DNA from: Dasypus novemcinctus
Taxonomy: Eukaryota > Chordata > Mammalia > Cingulata > Dasypodidae
Reading direction: 5' to 3'
NCBI RefSeq assembly: GCF_030445035.2
Contig: NC_080695.1
Span: 1,606,545-1,670,544, forward strand
Length of the DNA stretch: 64,000 nt
This document shows, in pieces, positions 6,099 to 25,500 of the stretch (the stretch's first letter is position 1; each line of letters opens with the position of its first letter). Both the position numbers and the translations under genes were made by a program. The notes below the pieces were generated by a model. It had not been told where the DNA came from. It saw only the letters and a program-made list of their open reading frames with translations, and ran no database searches.

Positions 6099-6401
6099 AC
6101 GGAGGAGTGGGACGTGCCGCAGATGAAGAAGGAGGTGGAGAGCCTGCAGTACCAGCTGGCCTTCAAGCGGGAGATGGCGTCGCAGACCATCCCGGAGTGA
6201 GCACCGCCCCCGCTTTGCATCCCTTTGCCTGAGCTTTGCATGAGCGCCCCGCACACCCAGGCGGCACGGCCGCTCACCCCACCCCCTGCCCCCAGGCTCC
6301 TCAAGTGGATCGAGGACAGCATCCCCAAAGACCCCTTCCTGAACCCCGACCTCATGAAGAACAACCCGTGGGTGGAGAAGGGCAAGTGCGCCATCCTGTG
6401 A
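6099..6401 (+). CDS. GNG13: G protein subunit gamma-13 (start codon reads ACG)
   Basis: Two coding exons, 6099-6196 and 6296-6401, joined at a phase-2 junction (GA|G), give 67 residues, the human length. The product is the Ggamma13 subunit that pairs with Gbeta for signalling in taste and retinal cells. Visible features are EEWDVPQMKKEVESL at the N-terminus, the GGL-type NPFEE-equivalent stretch KDPFLNPDLMKNNPWVEKG, and the C-terminal CAAX box CAIL, whose final Leu predicts geranylgeranylation. The codon aligned with the human ATG is ACG (6099-6101). The next in-frame ATG is at 6123 (MKKEVE), which would drop eight residues. No upstream in-frame ATG was found in a plausible 5' exon. The gene converges on CHTF18. 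Identity is very sure; the start is not. Confidence 0.92.
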
Positions 6402-6536: not shown

Positions 6537-9500
6537 CTACAGCAGGTCCCTGACGTACAGGCTGCGGCGCACAGCGTTGGAGACACCCTCGTTGAAGCGG
6601 AACCACACGTCGCTCTGGCCCACGGCCGTGCCCAGGCGCTCCGCCGGCTCGGGGGCCGCGTCCTCTGGGGGGCACACGCTGCTGTCCGCGGCCCCGCCTG
6701 GGCCCCAGGCCCGCCTCACCGCCCAGCACACCTGGGCGCACCTGGGCTCACCTGGGCTCGGGGCAGCTCTCCGGACGACCACCCGCCCAAAGAAGTCTCT
6801 CTCCGGCTGGGGGGAGGGAGGCCAGTCAGGCCGGGGAGCCCCAAGGCCCCGGCCCCACCCTCCCTGCTACTCCCGGGACCGGCCGGCCGGGCCCCAACCC
6901 CGCAGTGATGGGGTCGAGACCTCTGCCACCCCCAACAGACCCGCCGGGCGAGGGGGCGTCCCTCAGAGCCGCCTGCTCCCGGCCAGCCGGGCCTGGGGGA
7001 GAACGGCATCGGGCCCCGGGCACCGAGGCCACCCTGGACCCTGGGGCTCAGCACAGCCCCAGCCCTCACCTGCTCCTTGAAAGCTGCTCTCCTGATGACG
7101 TGCTCTAGCCGCTGCTCGTGGTTACGGGGGGAGGGACGCACACCCCCTTGCCCCACACGGTCCCCCACCGGGCCTTCAGCCCCCAGGGGCCCCCCGGCCA
7201 GCTGCAGGGTGGGAATGCGGTGAGGGGGGACTGGGCAGGCCGGGCCAGGACCCCCGAGGCTCTGCAGCCAGGGCCTCCCTGCTCGCAGCCCAGGGCGGGG
7301 GCTCACACGGGGGCGCCCCGGGAGCTCACCTGGGGCCCAGGGCCCGCCCGGGCCGAGGCCTCCGCCCGCCGCATCTTCTCCAGGTCGATCTCGCGGGCGA
7401 TGAGCTGCTTGGCCTGGTAGCTGAGCGGCTTGCGCACAGGCAGCTCGGGGAAGCGGCAGATCTCCTCCACGTTCCTGTCTCGGGTGGGCAGGACCCCAGG
7501 GCGCATCAGTGGGCCCCACGGCAGGGCCCCTGCTCCCCCAGCCCCGACGACCAGAGCCCTACACTGGTGGCCGGTCATCCCAGCACCATCTCGGGCCAGG
7601 GGTGATGAGATTCACTCTTCTGAGCCTGTCTCCCCAACTTCCAGAGGCCCCCCGGGACAACAGGGTGTGGTGGCTGGTGGCTGGGGCCCAGGACCACCTG
7701 CCTGAGACCCCCTTGGATGAGCTGCCAGAAGGGGCTGGGGGCCCCTGCCTCATTTCAAGGGGCCTTTGGGGGCCTGAGCCTCGTTTCCAGGGGCCCTTGG
7801 GATGCCTGCCTGGTTTCCAGGGGACTTTGGGCATCCAAGTGGCTCCCATAACTCAAGCCTGCAGCCCCCACTTGTGGTCTGGCGCAGGCCCTGCTGCCCC
7901 CAGGCGTCTGAGTAAGTCCCCGCTGTGGTCTGACCGCAGGTGTGAGGTCCCGGGGGGACACGGCGCTTGGCTCCTCCCCTGCCCGAGCCCCAACTCCAGA
8001 GCTGCCAGGACGAGTCACCGTCTCCCCCCAGGCCTTCCCTGGGCACCCGCTGCGGGGAAGCGCAGAGCGCAGAGGGCAGGCTCGGCCATGCGCCCGGAAG
8101 CTTCTGGGAGGAGGCAGGGATGGGAACAGAACTTGCTAACCAGAGAAGAGGGGCCCGGCTCTGGGCAATGAGGGCCGAGGGCAGGCAGCACCTCAGCCGG
8201 GCTGCCTGGCGGCCCCAGGGGCGCCTTCCCTGCCCGTGTGGACCCCGAGGCGAAGCCCCAGCGCGGCGTGCCGGGGCGCAGGACCCACGGCCGAGGCCCT
8301 GGCTCGGCGCTCCCACCCCCCGCCCTGCTCAGCCGCGGTCGGCGGGAGCCTGCCACCTGCAGGCCGACCGGGCCCAGGGGTGGGAAGCTAGAACCACCTC
8401 CCGCGCGGGACAGGTGGGAAAACCGAGGCCCACGCCCCACCCCGGCCTCCTCCGGCCTGCGGCCCGCACTCACGGCTCCAGCCTGTAGGTGTACTGGCCG
8501 TCGGGCGTGCGCTCCTGGCGGTAGCTGAGGCTGTAGGCCGTCATGGTGTCCACCAGCGCCGCCAGCTGCTGCTTCTCGCGGGCGCTGTACAGCTGCGCGC
8601 TCACCTGCGGGGGGCGGAGCTCAGCACCCGGCCCCGCGCTCCCCCCGGCCCCCACCCCCGCCCCCGGCGGGCACTCACAGGGCGCAGCTTGGGCGCGAGG
8701 ATGTCCAGGAGCAGGCAGAGCGTGTCCAGGACGAGGGCCTGGGGCACGGCCCGGCTGCGGGTGGCCGGCGTGGCGCCCGACAGCAGCGTCTGAACCAGGG
8801 TCCGTGTCCGGCTCAGGCGGGCCTGCGCCTGGGCGGAGGAGACGGCCCGTCACGCCCGGGCACGGTGGGCAGCATGGGGCGGGGGAAGGGGCCGCGCACC
8901 TCCTGCTGGCTGCTGGGGAAGGCGAGGCGGGCACGGGGCTGGGGGGGGGCGCGCACCTCCTGCTGGCTGCTGGGGAAGGCGAGGCGGGCACGGGGCTGGC
9001 TGCTGGGGAAGGTGAGGCGGGCACGGGGCTGGGGGGAGCGCGCACCTCCTGCTGGCTGCTGGGGAAGGCGAGGCGGGCACGGGGCTGGGGGGAGCGCGCA
9101 CCTCCTGCTGACTGCTGGGGAAGGCGAGGGCGCGGCGCGTGGCTGGAGGCGAGGAGCACGTGGAAGGCCACGGGCACGAAGACCGGGTAGCGCAGCAGCT
9201 GGAAGCTCTGGCCGCGGTGTGCAGCGCGGGCCAGGACGTCGTCGAAGGCCAGCCAGTCAAGGGCGGTGCACACCACGCCCAGGCCGGGCTCCCGCAGCCG
9301 CAGCCGCAAGAAGTTGTCATACAGGCCCTGCGGGGGACAGCCTGTGAGCCCCTGCTGCCGGCCCGGGCCGCCACCTCCAGGCAGCCCTCCCTGACCTAGC
9401 CTCCACACAGCTCCATCAAGGCCTCCTGTTCGCCAGCGGGGCCCCGGGGGAGAAGGCTGACCCAGCCCCAAAACCCACCCCCCCACCCCCAACTGCCTGG

Positions 9501-12500
9501 AGGAGCCCACGGGGTACAGCCCCAACCCCCCGAGGCAACCTGCACACAAATTCCACTGCCCAGAGTCAAGGGCACGAAGCCCCCACCACCCAATCCTGTA
9601 CGGCAGCCCCGTCCCTGCCGGCTGCGCGCCACCCCACCTCACCCCCGCCCTGTGGCGTGGGATTTGTCTGGGCACAGACCCCCCGTTGCTAATCCAAAGC
9701 TGCTTAGGACAAGAAGGCGGCTTAGCCCCAGCTCCCCGGAGGGGCGGGGGCGCTGCCACCTGCTCGGGATGCAAGCCGCCACCGCCTGCCACGCTCCCAC
9801 CCCACGTGCAGCCCGTCCAGTGGGCAGGGGGCCGCCCCTCCCCGGCGGCCCTGGCAGGAGGCGCCCGCCTCTCCCCTTGCCCCGGGCACCACCTGGCACC
9901 CCGCCCTGGGGAGCAGCCACCTGGACCAGCTTCTCGTGCTCGCCCGTGGAGCTGGCGACGTGCAGCACGTGGTAGAAGCGCTGCGAGGCCACAGTCGGGG
10001 GCTCACTGGGGTGGGGCCCTGCACCCCCGTCCCCATCGCCCCCCAAGAACATGTGGGCAGGCTGCGCTGGGTCCTGGCCCCCCCGCCACCTGCAGGGAGG
10101 AACAAGGAGGCTGAGGCCGAGGGGCCCTGTCCCCACTCCCCCCAAACCCTCAGAGCACGCCCCCCCAGCCCCCACCCACTCCCGCCAGGCCTGAGGGCTG
10201 TGCCCTGGACCGGCCCAAAGCCCTCCGCATGCACGGTGCAGACCGTAGGGAGGGCGCCCTCGGAGGCTGGCAGCGCCATGTCCCACCTGGTGAGCTCCTG
10301 GGGGCAGCGTCCTGGGGTCCCGAGACCCCCCGGTAGCCGGCTTGCCCCCCACAAGCATGGCCGGGCCTGCAGCAAGGCCCCCCCACCCGCAGCAGACGGA
10401 CCCCCCGCGCTGCTCACCGCTGCGCCCGGGGCAGCTGGAAGACCTCCTGCCACACAGAGAAGAGCCCCCGGCGCTGGTCCTTGAGGCCGACGTGCGCCGT
10501 CCGCACCGTCCCCAGGCTCAGCCCCCGCCGGCCCTGCCCGTGCAAGAACTGCCCCCGCGGGCGGGCGTGAGAGGCACGGGGAGGGTGGAGCGGGCCCCCC
10601 GCCGCACCCCCGCGCCCCGCGCGCCCACCTGCAGGGTGTTGACGCAGGCCCGGATGTCGTTGCCCGTCTTCTCGCAGAGCGCGGCGAGCGCGCCCGGGTC
10701 GGCCTGCATGCCCCGCTTCAGGGCGATCTGTGGGAGGCCAGCGGTGGGCCCAGGGACGGGTGAGGGCGAGTGCACCGGCCCATGCAGCCCTCCGGCGCGG
10801 CCCCCCCACCTCCCCCACCCCCACCGACCTCCAGGAGCCGCTGCGCGAGCCGCGACGGCAGCGTCGGCGGGAAGTGGAGCAGGAGCGCCTGCTGCTTCAG
10901 CTGCCGCAGGGAGGGCGCGAACCTGGGGGCGCAGGGGCGGTACCCTCAGCCGGGGTCCTCGGGGTCTGCACCCCGGCCCAGCCCCAGCTCTGCAGCCTTG
11001 ACGTGGCCGGGCAGGCAAGCAGGGCGGCCCTCCCCAGGGGCCCGAGACCCCGCGCGGCCCACCCGACGCCCCCCACTCACGGGTCGTTGCAGATGCAGAT
11101 GACGGGCCTCAGCAGCAGCCCCCCCGCCTGGCGCCGCCGCCCCGCCCCCGCGGGCACGCTCTGGCCCCCCGGCTCCGGCCCCTGCGGGCCCCTGCGCTCC
11201 AGCACACTCAGGAGGACGTTGACGGCGGCCTGGGGGAGGCGCGGGGGACCGCTTGAGCCACTGCCCGCGGCCACCAGCCCGCCCGCGCCAAGCTCACCCA
11301 CCGTGGGGGCCCCGTCGATCTCGTCAATGACCAGGCAGTTGGGCCGCCCGCCGGCGCCCAGCACCGACTCCATCTGCGTGGCCGCCTCGATGCGCGCGCG
11401 GAAGGCCTCGGGGCTGCGGTCGTCGCTGGTGGCGATGGCACTGTGAGCTCAGGCGCCCGCCTCTCGTCGGCGTCCCCGCAGGGAGCCTCTGGGTCCCACC
11501 CGCCACTTGAGGCTCCTGCCCATCCCGGCAGGCCCAAGGCGCGGGATTCCCGCGGCAAGCGCCCTAGGCCCAGCGCCGGCTCAACCAGGCACGTCGGGAC
11601 AGCGGGGCCACCCGCTCACCTGGCGTTCATCTCCACCACCGCGTAGCCCGCGTGCCGGGCGATCACGTGGGCCAGGGTGGTCTTGCCCAGCCCCGGGGGC
11701 CCACACAGCAGCGCCACCTGCAGGCCGGGCGGAGTAGGGGCTGAGCCCAGCCCCCTCCAAGAAGCCCCCTCCCAGGGCGGCACCAGCGAGCAGCCAGAAC
11801 CCGCCCCCAAGGATCGACGACCCCCCAGGCTCAACGCCCCCCAAAGCTCAATGGCCCCCGAGACTCAACACCCCTCCCCGAGGCGCAACGCCCCCGCAGG
11901 CTCAATGCCTGGGGAAGCCCCTCTGTCAGGGGAGGACGACCCCAGCAGCAGAGCTAGGGCTCAGTCAGCAGGTCACGGGGGGACCGAGGGGCATGGCCGT
12001 CAGCACGCACAACCCCCAAAACCTCCACCGTCCGCCAAGAGCAGCTGGGGGGAGAGGAGCAGGGCCTGCCGAGAGCGTCAACTCTACCCACGATGCCTGG
12101 GGACCGCTCACAAGCTCCAACTCGTGCCGCCAACGCTGCACTAGCCCCCGAGGCCTCGGAGGCGGGGAGAGCAAGCCCCCCCTCCTCCCCCCTCCCTCCC
12201 CCCCCACCCGTCATCCCAGGCCCTGGAGGCGCCCACAGCATGGCCCACCCAGGGCACGGCCAAGTGGCCTCACCTTCTGCCGCGGCCGCTGGCTCGGGTC
12301 CAGCTCGGCCTCCAGCATCTCCTCCAGCACCTGCTCGTGGCTCTTCCACTTGGCGGAGGCCGTGGCCTCCTTGCCGGCCCGAGGCGGCTCTGCGCCGAGC
12401 CTTGGCCTCCGGGCGGGCCTCTCGCGGCCGAACACCACCACGTCCCACAGCTTCAGCCACTTGAGCAGGCAGCGGTTGGTGAACTGCGGGGGAGGCGTGG

Positions 12501-14429
12501 CTCGAGGGGCAGGTGCTCGTCCACCTGCCACCACGAGCCCACCTGGCGGGCCCCGAGGCCCAGAGCCGAGCGGCTGGCACCCACCACCCTGCATCTCCAA
12601 ATGCCTTCCCGGTGCCAACCCTGACATTGGGTAACGGGGAAGAGGGAACAGAGGCTCAGGCAGGGGCGCCCCAGCAGGCCAGCCACACAGACCCCACTCC
12701 CGCCGGGCGCCTCACGTCGTCGCTCAGCAGCTCCGTGTAGTGCCGCGGTGCGAACTCATCCACCCAGAGGTGCTGGGGGTCGTCGGAGCCGCCGGTCGCC
12801 TCCTGCTCCTCCCCGGGGACCGCGGGCTGGGCCTCCTCCTCCAGCTCGGGCCTGAGGCTAGAGAGGTGCATGCCCTCAGCCGCCGGGTAGGACCACAGAG
12901 ACCACACACCAGACGCCGGCCCAGCAGGGAGCGGTTCCAGGCGCGGGAGGACCACGGAGTCACCTGCGCAGCGTGTCCGAAAGGCGCTGGGCCTCCTGGA
13001 GCAGCCGCTGCCGCCGCTGCACGAACAGAAAGCTGGGGTCAGGACAGCCCAGGGGCCACGTGTCCCCAGGCCCCCTCCCGGGCAGGGCCCAGTAGAACCA
13101 CCTCGCTGTCAACCTGCTCCTTCAGGGAAGAGAATGGCACCCCCAACAGGTCCAGCTGCCTGCGGCCACGCCACCAGATGTCAAGAGGCGGGTTCTGGGA
13201 AAAGGGAGCACGGCACCTGCCTCTGAACGCCCCCCAAGCCACAGGGGTCCCTGCAGTGTCCCGTGTCCCCCCACCCCCCCGCCGACAACACACTTAGAGC
13301 ACAGCATCAGCGGCAAGAGAGACACACAAGCTCCTCTCTAATCAGGGCAAGGTGGCGCTCAAAAGCAGCCCGGCTGGCGCACAGAGGTGGAGAAGTGTCC
13401 TCTGAGATCCCCTAGGCTGGCCAGACCACAGGCCACCCCCCCCCCCAAGCAACTTCTGCTGTCCCCCGTCCCAGAGCCGAGCAAACACCCGGTTCACGCA
13501 AGCCCGGCTCGCAAAGGCTCCCGTCTGCCCAGCAGGTGGCAGGAGCCGGGAGAGCTGCCAAGGATGCCCGGGCTCCAGCCCCCACCTGTACCTCCGTGCC
13601 CGTGGGGTCAGCCTGCAGCAGGAGGAAGGCCCGGTCGCCGTCTGTGGACGTCACATGTACGTAATCCTCCAGGACGGGCGGCCGCCTCAGGACGCGGTTC
13701 CGGGCGGCTGGCAAGACCTGCGTGAGCTCCGCGCAGGCACCGGCATCCGGGGGCCTGGCAGAGGCTAGGGCTCAGTCCCGTGGCCTCCCGCTACTGGGGC
13801 GAAGGGCTGGGGTCTAGCACCTCTCCACCCCCCCAGGCCTCAGGGCCTCCTCAGGAATGCCCCCGACCCACCCGTGCGGCGAGGGGCCGTGCAGGGGCAC
13901 ACACCCGTTGGCCCACGGCGCAGCAGGGACCTCAGGGCTCGGTGGGGGTGTGACGCCCCGCGGGGAGGCGGGAGGTGGCAGCTCCTGCGGCTCCTCTGGC
14001 CCGAAGTTCAGCCTCTTGACCACCTCCAACCGGGGCCGTTTGGCCTTCGGGGCTGCGGAGACAGGAGGAAACAAGAGCCCCGAGTCTCCCAGCCCCGCCG
14101 CTGCCCCGCGCCAACCGCGCACGTCCTGCGGCGCAAGGGTCCGTCCGCGCGCGGCGGCGTCCTCGGATGAGGGCCGGGTCGGCCCGCCCTGGGAACCCCG
14201 CAGGGCGGCGGGACTGAGGTACGGACGGCGCGGTCTCGGCAGCCGCCCCGGGGCAGGGCGCGGGAGAGCCCCGCAGCCGCGCCGCGCTCGCCTCCTGCTC
14301 CTCCGCGAAGGCCTCCCCGAGGCCGGGGCCGCGCCCACCTTCCAGCTCGGCCAGCACCTCGAGCTCGTCCGCGAACTGGCTGTGGAAGTCGTCCTCGGCG
14401 CCGAACGGCGCCCACTCGTGGTCCTCCAT
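6537..14429 (-). CDS. CHTF18: Chromosome transmission fidelity factor 18, alternative clamp-loader large subunit
   Basis: Many exons on the minus strand run from ATG at 14427-14429 ([19 protein letters not shown]) to TAG at 6537-6539 ([10 protein letters not shown]). CHTF18 with DSCC1, CHTF8 and RFC2-5 forms the Ctf18-RFC that loads PCNA and supports sister chromatid cohesion in the nucleus. The AAA+ core is plain: Walker [13 protein letters not shown] near 11.69 kb, Walker [11 protein letters not shown] near 11.32 kb, and the sensor region VICICNDP near 11.08 kb. Conserved later blocks are [20 protein letters not shown] near 10.46 kb, [15 protein letters not shown] near 9.23 kb, [16 protein letters not shown] near 7.44 kb and [18 protein letters not shown] at the end. 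One exon end near 9.05-9.10 kb lies in a minisatellite that repeats its splice donor (separate entry). The 5' end faces RPUSD1. Individual exon edges were not all fixed. Confidence 0.95.
8894..9130. repeat. 56-57 bp minisatellite carrying a copied exon end and splice donor of CHTF18
   Basis: Four copies of a unit containing, on the minus strand, the exon end FPSSQQE followed by a GTGCGC donor start at 8894, 8951, 9040 and 9096. A further partial copy without the donor lies inside the second unit. Unit spacings are 57, 89 (53 plus a 36-base partial) and 56 bases. The copy at 9096 is continuous with the CHTF18 coding exon. Confidence 0.85.
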
Positions 14430-19551: not shown

Positions 19552-22500
19552 ATGGCCCCCGGAACGGGTGAGCGACCCCAAGCCGCGACCCCGCCCCCAG
19601 CCCAGCCTCCCTGTCCCTGGCGGGACTGGCCGGGCACGCGCCGCTCACGCCCTCCGTTGCAGGCGGCCTTGCGCGCCCGCTGCTTGTGCTCCTGGTGTCC
19701 CTCGCGGCCCCCGGCGCCCGTCCCCAGGCCCAGGGCCTCGTCCAGGGCGGGCTAGGCAGTGGCCCGGACACAGCGCTCAGGTGAGTGCCCGGCACTTCCT
19801 CGCGGCTGCCGCCCCCCCCAGACTTCCCCCAGGTGAGCGGAGGCCGTGGCCAGTGTGCGTCCAACATGCCCAGGACCCCCTGCCCCCCCACTGTGGGGCC
19901 ACCGGGCTCTCGGGAGCCCTTGGCCGCCCTCACCCACTGGCCAGCGTGTGGGGGGCTGCAGCCCTCGCCAGGTCACATGGCTGGGGCCCCCGACCCACTG
20001 CTCCTGCCACCTCCTGCGCCCCAGCCTGTCCTCCGAGCCTCCGGGCGCCGTGCTAGCGCCTGCGGCCGGCCACCCCCGGCGCCGCTCGCCTCGGCCATTT
20101 CCCTGTGTTATCCAGGGGCCCTGCTGTCCCCCTTCCCTTGGGCACAGTGCTGCCCAGTCAGCTGATGGCTCCACTGACCAGTGGGCTGGGCAGGGCGAGC
20201 TGCGCTGGCACAGGCCAGTGCCCCAGGACACCAGGTCCCCATGGCGAGAAGGCTGGAGGGGCCCGTCCTGCCATGGCCCCAGGAGCCACCCGAGCTCAAC
20301 GCCAGCTGGGACCGGCTGTCAGTGGGGAGCACAGCCTCTGCCAGCGGCGGGGGCCAGGCTAAGCCCCCCACAACCCAGAGCCTGGCCCCCCCGTGCTCCT
20401 GGACGGAGGGACCCAGCGGACGAGCGAGTGGACGCGCGGCGCAGGATGCCGGCCAGCGATGAAGCACCCCTGCACCAGGCCCTGCGCCCGGTGCCCCGTG
20501 TCTGGGAACAGCCAAGGCTGCCCGGCCCGCCTGCAGCGTCCTGCGTGCGCCCTCTCTGGCGTCCGGCCCCCGCCCTCACCACCGGCCCTTCTGCCCTGAC
20601 CGCCGCCAGCGCCTCCCTCCTGCGAGCCTTCTGGTGCCAGCCCGCCCGCCAGCTGCCCCGGGACCAGCTCTCGGCCCTGGTCCGGACGATGGCGGCCCAG
20701 CGCATCGTCCTCCAGGCCTGGCAGGTGAGCGCCGCGCGGGGCCGGGGCGGGGGTCCCGCTCCCAGCAGGGGACATGGCCGGGGGCACAGGCCACCAGCGT
20801 GGGTGCGGTCAGGGAGCCAGTTTGCCCACCCGTCCTGACCTGACCCGCCTCTTAGGGACCTGGTGCTACGGCTGTCTCAGCCCCTTGGGCCAGTCCCCGC
20901 CCCTTGGGTGGCTTCCCTGAGGGGCCCTCGGGGGCCGTTTCCAGGGCTTCCTAGCCCACCCTTTTCCCACAGCCTCCCCTGCCTCAGGCTCTTGCTGCAG
21001 ACAGGGGAGGGTCCCCTCCTCTCCTCCCTCCTCCCCTCCTCCCCTCCTCCTCCGGCCTGAGCCCGTGGGGTGGATGTGCAGCCCCTGGCCTGGGCCCCAG
21101 CCGATGCTGCAGCCCCACGGCAGACCTAGCGTCGCTGCCCGAGGTTGGCGTTGTTTCCAGCCACCGCGCCGTCCCATAAAATCATCATAGACATGTTAGA
21201 GGAGAAGCGGGGAAAGCAGGGACGCGGGCAGCCCCATCCTCCCCGGAGAGCCGGGCCTCCGCTCTCGGCTCTCTGAGCAGAGCAGAGCTTGGTTTTCGTG
21301 GAGCTAGGCCGGCCCCGGCCCCTGCCCCTGCCCTCCCCCTCTGCCGCCGTGGCCCCAGGTCCGTCCCCACGGCGCCTCGTGTCAGGGGCCGATTCCCAGG
21401 GGAGCGGCCCCCTCTGGCCGCGCCAGCCTGGTCACGCCTGCCTTGGACTGGCCCAGGCCTAACGACCAGGTTTTTGGGGTGTCAAGGGGTTTTGGGGCGG
21501 GGAATCTCATGAAGCTCCTTCCTCATGTTGGAGATCTTGGAAGATACTGAAAGGTCCGAGGTGGGAGCTGAAAACTCCGGTGGCTCGGCCACGCGGTGCG
21601 CTGGCGGCTCGTCAGTTTGCGTCGCCTTTAGACGGAGCGGGCGCGATGGCCGCGTGTGTGCTTCCTGTGTGCTGGAGGTCCTCGAGGCAGGACGCGCCAG
21701 GTCCTGCTTTGGCTGGGTGTTCAGGGGCCCGGCTTTCCCGCTGTTGGCATCGCGGCATCGGGGCTGTTTCTACCCCAGTGTTGTCGAGGCCCTTAGAATG
21801 CCTGGGGGAAACCGGCTCTGGACCAGTCGCGCCACGTTCTCCGGCGGGGGCCCAGCTCGCCCCCCACGTTCCCCATGAGCCCATGAAAGCCTTAGCTGGG
21901 TTGAGGGGGGATGCGGGATCTTCAGGGTGAATGTTGTTAAACCACTGGTACCTGTGGTCAAGGCCCTTCCTGGAAGGCCCTACAAGCTTCTGATTCTCTG
22001 TCAATGCGTGAGGGGCTGGTCTGGCCATGTCTTCACCAGCACTGGGCATCGTGGTTTAGGAAACTTGCAATCAGAGAAAACCTTCCAGAAGGCTCCAAGC
22101 CTCCTGTCCTGGGGGAGGAGGGGGCGTCCGCTCCATCTCCACCCCTTCCACGTCGTGTGGGGTTTGACGACGGTGTTTTGCTTCATCATGCAAGACTCCC
22201 TCGTAAAACTATTAATTTTTAAGAAAAGACAGCCCATTAAGGCACATGTAGGAATACACAGATGTCTTTACAGACTTTTTAAAAATTAATAGATGACATT
22301 TTAGAGTGTTTTGGTTTTTTTTAAGGTTTATTTATCCCCCGCCCCCTTGCTGTCTGCTCTCTTTGTCCATTCCCTGTGTGTTCTTCTGTGTCTGCTTGTC
22401 TTCTCTTTGGGCAGCACCGGGAACTGATCCTGGGACCTTCTGGAGTGGGAGAGAGGTGCTCAGTCTCTCACATCCCCTCAGCTCCCTGGTTTTTTGCTAA

Positions 22501-25500
22501 GTCTCTTATTGTCTCTCTTCCATGTCTATTTGTCGTGTCATCTTGCTGCGCCAGCTCTCCGCATGGGGCAGCACTCCGTGTGGGCCAGCTCACCACAGAG
22601 GCCAGCTCACCTTCACCAGGAGGCCGCAGGAATTGTACCCTGGACCTCCCGTGTGGTAGACAAAAACCTAGTCGCTTGAGCCACCTCTGCTTCCCTCAAG
22701 TGCTTTTAGATTTACAGGAAATTGAGCACACAGTACAGAGGTGTCCGTGTGTCCCTTCTCCCTCCCAGTCTCCCGTTCCTGGCGTCTCGCATCAGGGTGC
22801 TGCATCTGCTACGACTGATGGATCAATATTGGAACATTACTAACTGAAGTCTGTATTTCTGTTAGGGTTCATCTGGGCAGCTCTGAGGCTGTGACAGACG
22901 CATCACGTTCTGCATCCGCTGGCCAGCCCAGACATTTCACTGCCTTAAAAGTCCTCCAGGATAAAAAAATAAATAATGACAAAAAAATAAAATTAAAAAT
23001 TAAAAAAAAGCCCCCCAGTCTGCCTTTTCACCTTCTTGACGAAGCCCTGATCATCACAAGGGTGTCTGGGTTTGAGGAGGTCCCATTTGTCCACGTTTTC
23101 TTTGGTGGCTCATGCTTTCTTTTTGACTATCTTCTGAGCATTTCATCCAGGGGGTGCTGTTTTGTGGTCTGCCTTTCTGCATCGATTGAGACGCTCGTGT
23201 GTTTCTTTCCCTTCGACTTGGTAGAGATGTGTTGTGTTGGTTGATTTTCTTAGGTGAACCATCCTTGCATTCCAGGAACAAAGCCCACTTGATAGTGACG
23301 TAAACCAGGCTCCACCTGCTCGTCCCTCCCTCTCCCCCAGCCCCTGGCCACCCCTGGTGTTCGTCCCTGTAGTTCTGCTTTTCCAGATGTCACACGGCTG
23401 GACTCGTGCAGCACGCAGCCCCTTCAGAGTGGCTGCTGCACCAGCAGCTGGCATTCAAGATTCCACCTCTTCTCAAGGCTTGATTTTTTCTTCTTACTGC
23501 TGAATAATATCCCATTATCTGGATGTCAGTTTGTCCTTTGGAAGGACATCCTGGTTGCTTCCAGTGTGGGGCAGTTATGAATAAAGCTGCTGTAAACCCT
23601 CATGTGCAGGTTTCGTGGGGACGGAAGTCTTCAGCTTCTTTGGCTAACGGTCAGGAGTGTGGCTGCCGGATCTTTGTTAGAAATCCTCAGTCTGTCTTCC
23701 AAAGCGGTTACTTTGTTTGCTTTCCCAGCTGCAATGAATTGGGCTCCCAAGAGCTCCTCTTGCCCCACATCCTTGCCAGCATTTGGTGTTGTCAGGTTTT
23801 ATGGGTTATGTGGGTTTTTTTATTTTGTTTCATTTTAGCCATTCTAATTAGGCGTGAAGGGGTAACTCGTTTTAATTTGCAATTCCCTAACAACCTATGA
23901 TGCTGAGCATCTTTTCACACACTCGTTTGCCATCTATATCTTCTCTGGGGCGGGGGGGGGGTGTCTATTCAGATCTTTTACCATATTTTTTTTGTTTTGT
24001 TTTGTTGTTTTTAGGTACCAGGGCCTAAAATTGCACCTGGGACCTCTCATGTGGAAGCACCTGGGACCTCTCATGTGGGAAGCAGGCATTCTACCCCTGG
24101 AGCCACATCTGCTCCCCTTTTGCCATTTTTTAATTGAGTTGTTTAGTTTCTTATTGTTGAGCTTTTAGAGTTGTCAATGTAATTCAGATACAAGTCCTTT
24201 ATCATGTATGGGTTTTTCAGACATTTTCTCCCACTCTGTAACTTGTCTTTTCATTCTCCTAACAGTGTCTTTCACAGAGTAGAAGTTTTTAATTTTAATG
24301 AAGTCCAACAACAAATTTTTCTTTCGTAGATTTTGTTTTTGGAGTTGTTTCTAAAATGTCATCTCCAGACTGAGGTTGCCTCGGTTTTTTTCTTGTGTTA
24401 TTTTCTAGAAGTTTTGTAGTTCTAGTTGTAGATTTAGGTCTGTGACCCATTTTTGAGTCAATTTTTTGAAAGGTGTATTGTCTGTGTCTAGATTCAGGTT
24501 TTTTTCCTGAATAACCAGTTGTCCCCATACCGTTTCTCCCCTGAATTGCCTCTGCGACTTTGTCAGAGGTCAGCTGACTGTGTTTGTGGGCTCTTTTTCG
24601 TGTTCCGCTGACCTCTTGCTCTATTTTTTCACAATGCCACGCTATCTCAAACATGTAGCTTCATAGTACATGTGGAAGTCAGGTGGTGACAGGTGGTCTG
24701 ACTTTGTTCTCTTCAGTGTTGTGTTGGCTATTGTGAGTCGTGTGCCTTTCTGTGTAAACTTTAGAAATAGTTTGTCAGTAGCTACAAAACAAATTGCTGT
24801 GGTTTTCAATGGGGTTGTGCTGAATCTATAGATCAAGTTGGGAAGAATTTCCTTCTGAACAAGACTGAGTTTCCTATCCATGAAAATGTACTTTATCTCC
24901 ATTTATTTAGATCTTCTTTGATTCTTTGATTTCTTTCACCAGAGTTTCTGTATAGATCTTGGATATTCATATTTTATTAGATGTATTCCTAAGTACTTCA
25001 GGTTTTGACCCTATTATAAACAGTATTGTGTTTTAAATATCAAATTCCAAGTGTTCATTGGTGGTAGGTATGAAAGCTGTTGACTTTTGTCAATTAACCT
25101 TGTATCCGTCAACTTTGCTATATTCACTTATTACTTCTGGGAGGTTTGTGGTGGTGGTTTGGTGGCTTGTAGAGTTTTCTGCATAGACAATCATGTCATC
25201 TGTAAAGATGGTTGCATTTCTTCCTTCCCATTCTGTACACCTTTTATTTCCTTTCTTGACTTATTGCACTAACTAGGACTTCCAGTACAATGTTTCACTA
25301 CCCATTAAGTGGTATAGTGTTATTTGAAAGTGGCCTTAGGTTGGTTGTAAAAGTATCTTGCAAACTCTAGGGAAACCATTAAAATTGTTTTAAAAAAGAA
25401 ATATAATTGCTAAGTGAAAAGAGAAGAGAAAATGGAATCATATAAAATGCTCAATTAAAACCAGAAAAGGCAGAATAAGAAAGGAAGACAAAAAAGAAAC

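Follow-up and report, generated by a model that had tools for sequence, protein, structure and literature searches.

A minisatellite over the end of CHTF18 exon 15 in an armadillo genome carries four identical splice donors, of which the second alone leaves the reading frame intact

The length variants of human IFI6 are in-frame variants produced by a 12-bp unit, and this should not be taken as a fixed rule for donors of this kind. It was reportedly Turri et al. in 1995 (Nucleic Acids Res 23:1854) who described a minisatellite with multiple splice donors in this gene, which is also called 6-16 or G1P3. According to the available sections of PMC4526556, a 130-aa form from human IFI6 is called predominant, and other mRNAs use two downstream repeat units. 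That new splice sites can arise by tandem duplication is likewise recognised, with ATP2A1 and a potato RdRp as examples in the accessible portion of PMC4974935. Competition between donors with unequal products is described, in the part of PMC5585400 at hand, for intron 4 of DOK7. Two 5' splice sites compete there, one of them yields a frameshifted, non-functional product, and the choice depends on context via SRSF1. SRSF1 that binds immediately upstream of the intron-distal site represses its use, an effect described for DOK7 and extended by the authors' analysis to many human genes (PMC5585400, same part).

In the armadillo gene CHTF18, as in IFI6, a minisatellite gives one exon several donors; in CHTF18 this is known from the genomic sequence. 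Among open-licence papers we found no report of the CHTF18 array by title or abstract, no literature on CHTF18 together with the armadillo, and none on VNTRs at splice sites under the terms tried. The DNA that we examined is a window of 64,000 bases containing no N, taken from a 3.61-Gb genome that comprises 546 contigs. CHTF18, the gene for a component of a clamp loader in DNA replication, lies on the minus strand of the window. We placed the coding exons by eye from homology and splice motifs, and all introns of the resulting model are GT-AG (Table 1). The coding exons other than exon 15 are in phase, 20 of 20, and if exon 15 ends at the second of the four donors described below, all exons join in phase into a CDS of 2808 nt that runs for 935 aa to the natural stop. 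Residues 30-935 of this protein align to residues 95-975 of human CTF18 (PDB 8umt_A; E = 0), and residues 1-37 match the same human chain in a separate alignment. Since the protein is collinear with human CTF18 along its length, and given the introns, we regard the locus as the CHTF18 orthologue. A processed pseudogene is ruled out by the 20 introns and the intact ORF. A search of the genome DNA for a second copy, made with exon 15 and the array, returned one full match, which was the locus itself, and one match of 42 bases.

Table 1. Features of CHTF18 around the repeated donor (positions in the window; for donors, last exon base/first intron base)
Feature	Position	Strand	Remarks
CHTF18 coding span	6537..14429	-	21 coding exons, 20 introns in the model
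Coding exon 15 to donor 2	9046..9327	-	282 nt, remainder 0; acceptor ctgtcccccgcag before 9327
Exon 15 to donor 1	9102..9327	-	226 nt, remainder 1 (+1)
Coding exon 16	8679..8828	-	phase 0; acceptor partner of exon 15
CCC run in unit 1	9128..9130	-	simplest place of the extra base (other units: CC before T)
Array unit 1	9072..9127	-	56 bp; donor 1 after 9102
Array unit 2	9016..9071	-	56 bp; donor 2 after 9046, coding part ends at the donor
Array unit 3	8983..9015	-	33 bp; lacks 23 bases and with them the donor
Array unit 4	8926..8982	-	57 bp; donor 3 after 8957, out of frame
Array unit 5	8872..8925	-	runs into unique intron; donor 4 after 8900, out of frame
Donor 1	9102/9101	-	exon 15 of 226; intron to 8828 of 273
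Donor 2	9046/9045	-	exon 15 of 282; intron to 8828 of 217
Donor 3	8957/8956	-	exon 15 of 371; intron to 8828 of 128
Donor 4	8900/8899	-	exon 15 of 428; intron to 8828 of 71
Retained FPSSQQE in unit 2 (donor-2 frame)	9066-9046	-	Phe matches human Phe-719; TTC-side neighbourhood 9055..9057

Several features of the surroundings can be recorded here. The genes adjoining CHTF18 are presumably RPUSD1 and GNG13; their coding sequences, of 927 nt and 204 nt, have no frameshift. The GNG13 frame on the plus strand is open and joins 6099-6196 to 6296-6401, with the donor CCCGGA|gtgagc. It starts with ACG (6099-6101) before EEWDVPQMKKE, and the 300 bases upstream contain, in frame, neither a stop nor an ATG. 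In other mammals we take the gene to have ATG at the position of this ACG, and the armadillo gene may start at a non-ATG codon or in another exon. In exon 1 of CHTF18 (13872-14429, minus strand) the model joins in frame directly to PKAKRPRL, which leaves human residues 31-94 largely unmatched; the sequence past 14339 is, by eye, open for some distance, and a longer exon 1 is possible. The element at 22330-22695, probably an armadillo SINE, belongs to a large repeat family of the genome: a first look gave 8635 candidates, and among the 40 that were scored the 39 besides itself were 79-83% identical.

The end of exon 15, with its donor GAG|gtgcgc, is repeated in a minisatellite of about 56 bp per unit, and the array spans the exon-intron boundary. 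On the minus strand the units start at 9127, 9071, 9015, 8982 and 8925, with spacings of 56, 56, 33 and 57. The first-pass annotation had counted four units; its tandem copies of the donor, four in number, are indeed present, whereas the units are five, because the unit at 9015 has 33 bases and no donor. Units 1 and 2 are identical at 55 of 56 positions. The main rows of TRF, with scores of 219 (8872-8999), 258 (8995-9146) and 347 (8905-9088), exclude a chance repeat; two further overlapping rows have periods of 28 and 30 and scores of 71 and 88. One other donor of the gene, that of exon 20 at 6752, also lies in a tandem repeat (6729-6759, minus strand; 10-bp unit, 3.1 copies), where copies of the GT stand at +10 and +20 and match at 15 and 12 of 20 bases. 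Two of 20 CHTF18 donors are thus inside TRF arrays, and as these arrays make up 6.4% of the coding span, which predicts about 1.3, there is no signal of an association.

The human counterpart of the exon end, counted from the conserved His codon, is HTPRITFPSSQQE, 13 residues or 39 nt ending at E725 of 8umt_A. In the armadillo the corresponding stretch up to donor 1 has 40 bases, and donors 2, 3 and 4 follow at 96, 185 and 242 bases from the same codon. When each of the four is joined to 8828, the ORF is intact with donor 2 only. Donor 1 leads to a stop after 820 codons, in exon 19 and 161 nt before the last junction, and donors 3 and 4 lead to stops after 723 and 742 codons, both in exon 16. 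Messages with stops this early are usually targeted for decay. Successive donors hence do not give in-frame length variants, one of the four being in frame. Compensation of the frame further upstream is excluded, since the frame matches the human one right up to the inserted residues. On all these points the first-pass annotation has been borne out: it had given the donor positions with the distances of 40 and 96 bases, the human segment of 39 nt with donor 1 shifted by +1, the next exon near 8828 in phase 0, and donor 2 as the only one in frame without stops and ending in FPSSQQE, with a reading longer by 19 residues.

In the alignment to human 8umt_A these 19 residues form one gap, between HAPR and LAFPSSQQE. 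The insert corresponds to 57 coding bases beyond the human sequence, is rich in Pro, Arg, Gln and Ser, and falls in the collar domain. The Phe of FPSSQQE is human Phe-719, since the human segment closes at E725, and in the human protein Phe-719 stacks on template DNA in the A-gate of the clamp loader. Read in the +1 frame, unit 1 loses the counterpart of this residue; unit 2 supplies it, with its distance to exon 16 unchanged. The product of donor 2 would therefore keep the contact phenylalanine, behind 19 more residues. As for how much change this surface tolerates, yeast RFC mutants in another conserved DNA-facing pair, the separation pin, had no obvious growth phenotype, according to the portion of PMC8893722 that describes them.

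The additional base is most simply placed in unit 1. This unit has GCGCCC before TCGCC; units 2, 4 and 5 have CCCGCC before TCGCC, and unit 3 has CCCGCC before TCACC. The simplest account would be a change from CC to CCC at 9130-9128 after the first duplication. The other difference of unit 1 is CAGCAGTCAG for CAGCAGCCAG (AGC/AGT), which leaves Ser unchanged in the ancestral frame but is not silent in the +1 frame. It gives a weak hint, from one change only, that unit 1 may long have been translated in the old frame, in which case the extra C would be recent, private or an error.

We propose the following explanation, to which we give somewhat better than even credence. A segment of about 56 bp, made of the last ~26 bases of exon 15, the 5' splice site and ~30 bases of the intron, would have expanded into a tandem array and thereby multiplied the donor into four identical copies. 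A gain of one C in the first copy would then have shifted donor 1 out of frame. Donor 2 would now be the one in use, with one more unit read through, so that the ancestral FPSSQQE with the A-gate phenylalanine is kept directly before exon 16 and 19 residues are gained. Transcripts spliced at donors 1, 3 or 4 would meet premature stops and be decayed or non-functional. With the rest of the gene intact, at least one transcript has to bring the frame back, provided that the extra base is real and fixed. Donor 1 might be bypassed, by analogy with DOK7, through suppression of the intron-distal donor by SRSF1. The analogy with IFI6, where a predominant form is set against forms from downstream units, would rather favour donor 1.

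How much weight does the fit of donor 2 carry? As a control we considered exon ends of 39, 40 and 41 bases, altering the length by one base at 9123 and again at 9129, with the same 12 outcomes. With one base fewer, donor 1 alone fits; with the end as found, donor 2 alone; and with one base more, donors 3 and 4. In each of the three frames the fitting donor leaves the whole ORF open. The offsets of the donors (0, +56, +145 and +202) span all three frames, and because the array offers a stop-free donor for every frame, the fit of donor 2 is no evidence of a rescue: any one-base change, whether real or a sequencing error, would look rescued. The first-pass annotation had proposed that the duplication rescues the +1 change. 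In its favour stand the otherwise intact gene, the single full match of exon 15 plus array in the genome DNA, and the joining of 9046 to 8828 as the best path, but the argument from the frame falls away. In our opinion the rescue is plausible, and less strongly so than was stated there.

The path scores were obtained with matrices built from 19 donors and 20 acceptors of CHTF18 itself. When the GT and AG dinucleotides found from 9140 to 8790 were paired into single introns of at least 60 bases, 16 solutions had an intact ORF, and 9046 to 8828 scored 15.0 against 8.8 for the next. Between -3 and +6 the four array donors do not differ, each scoring 4.93; the 19 other donors of the gene, each left out in turn, score from 3.1 to 12.1, and 18 of them lie above 4.93. 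Judged by these scores the array donors are weak for CHTF18, and the local sequence from -3 to +6 does not favour donor 2 over the other three. Single-intron joins from donor 1 (9102) with a length divisible by three were considered and rejected, as all nine contain stops. The unpaired probabilities of the four donors were computed as 0 or near 0 in all three settings, and we draw no conclusion from them.

A sceptic may attribute the extra C to a fault of the assembly, or to an allele that is rare or private, and hold that the normal exon ends at donor 1, 39 bases from the His codon, with the array as mere intron. We consider this unlikely. Deleting one base puts donor 1 in frame with the full ORF, the C-to-T difference of unit 1 is silent in the old frame, and the stretch is C-rich, with units that differ by small insertions and deletions; moreover, as the control indicates, any one-base change is expected to look rescued. 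Against this, there is no other frameshift in the ~3.9 kb of coding sequence that we examined in the window (CHTF18, RPUSD1 and GNG13), and the C run is just three bases long. The chromosome-sized contigs (72.6 Mb for C37, which carries the window) suggest in addition a long-read assembly.

It is also conceivable, and in our judgement distinctly unlikely, that the extra base is real and donors 1, 3 and 4 take most of the transcripts, donor 2 being used in a minority and the level of CHTF18 being reduced. The identity of the four donors speaks for such an outcome, as does IFI6, where mRNAs arise from more than one repeat donor and a single short product is called predominant in the part of PMC4526556 concerned; yet CHTF18 is otherwise intact, as expected under sustained selection. 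More complex splicing, with one or more small exons within the array, is very improbable: each unit does hold an acceptor-like tract (ccttccccag; 8899-9114, minus strand) that scores 11.0-11.1 on the gene's own matrix, against 10.0 for the exon-16 acceptor, and open two-intron paths exist (33 starting at donor 2 and 43 at donor 1), but even the most favourable ones involve another weak donor together with a less strong acceptor. Their weakest site scores 4.9 when they start at donor 2 and 0.7 when they start at donor 1, from which we reject such paths as likely; the simple path has the best score.

Returning to the use of donor 2, one may extend the proposal, and we do so as a doubtful speculation. 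With spacings of 56, 33 and 57, the array sets identical donors in all three frames and could act as a frame buffer that absorbs one-base slips. The lineage would then tolerate such frameshifts, the end of the exon would have moved by one unit and placed 19 more residues before the A-gate phenylalanine, and individuals may differ in the number of units and in the donor used.

If donor 2 is confirmed, CHTF18 would show legibly how a repeat array lying across a splice site can carry a conserved replication gene through a frameshift and shift its exon boundary. The 19 residues would adjoin the template-contacting phenylalanine of a clamp loader, and would hence be a natural test of tolerance at this position. 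Automatic annotation may mis-call exon 15 or flag CHTF18 as broken. Should the extra base be an error or private, what remains is a minisatellite at an exon end, which has the value of a curiosity.

The nearest comparison for the protein is human CHTF18 (CTF18, in CTF18-RFC), which is orthologous and has the same collar segment, FPSSQQE with Phe-719. It has no insertion between HTPR and ITFPSSQQE, where the donor-2 reading has 19 residues. As to the origin of the sites, the potato case, as far as the accessible portion of PMC4974935 describes it, resembles CHTF18 in that a tandem duplication crossing an intron-exon boundary supplies splice sites. In contrast to intron gain by tandem duplication, CHTF18 would need no new intron: an existing donor is multiplied, and the end of the exon would shift downstream. 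The competing donors of DOK7 are not described as repeat copies in the part of PMC5585400 at hand, whereas CHTF18 has four identical copies in an array. Minisatellite donors as such are known from IFI6. Judging from the sequence, CHTF18 differs in having units whose lengths do not keep to multiples of three, and its donors therefore switch frame: unlike in IFI6, with 56, 33 and 57 bp per unit the donors are spread over three frames, and only one of them is productive.
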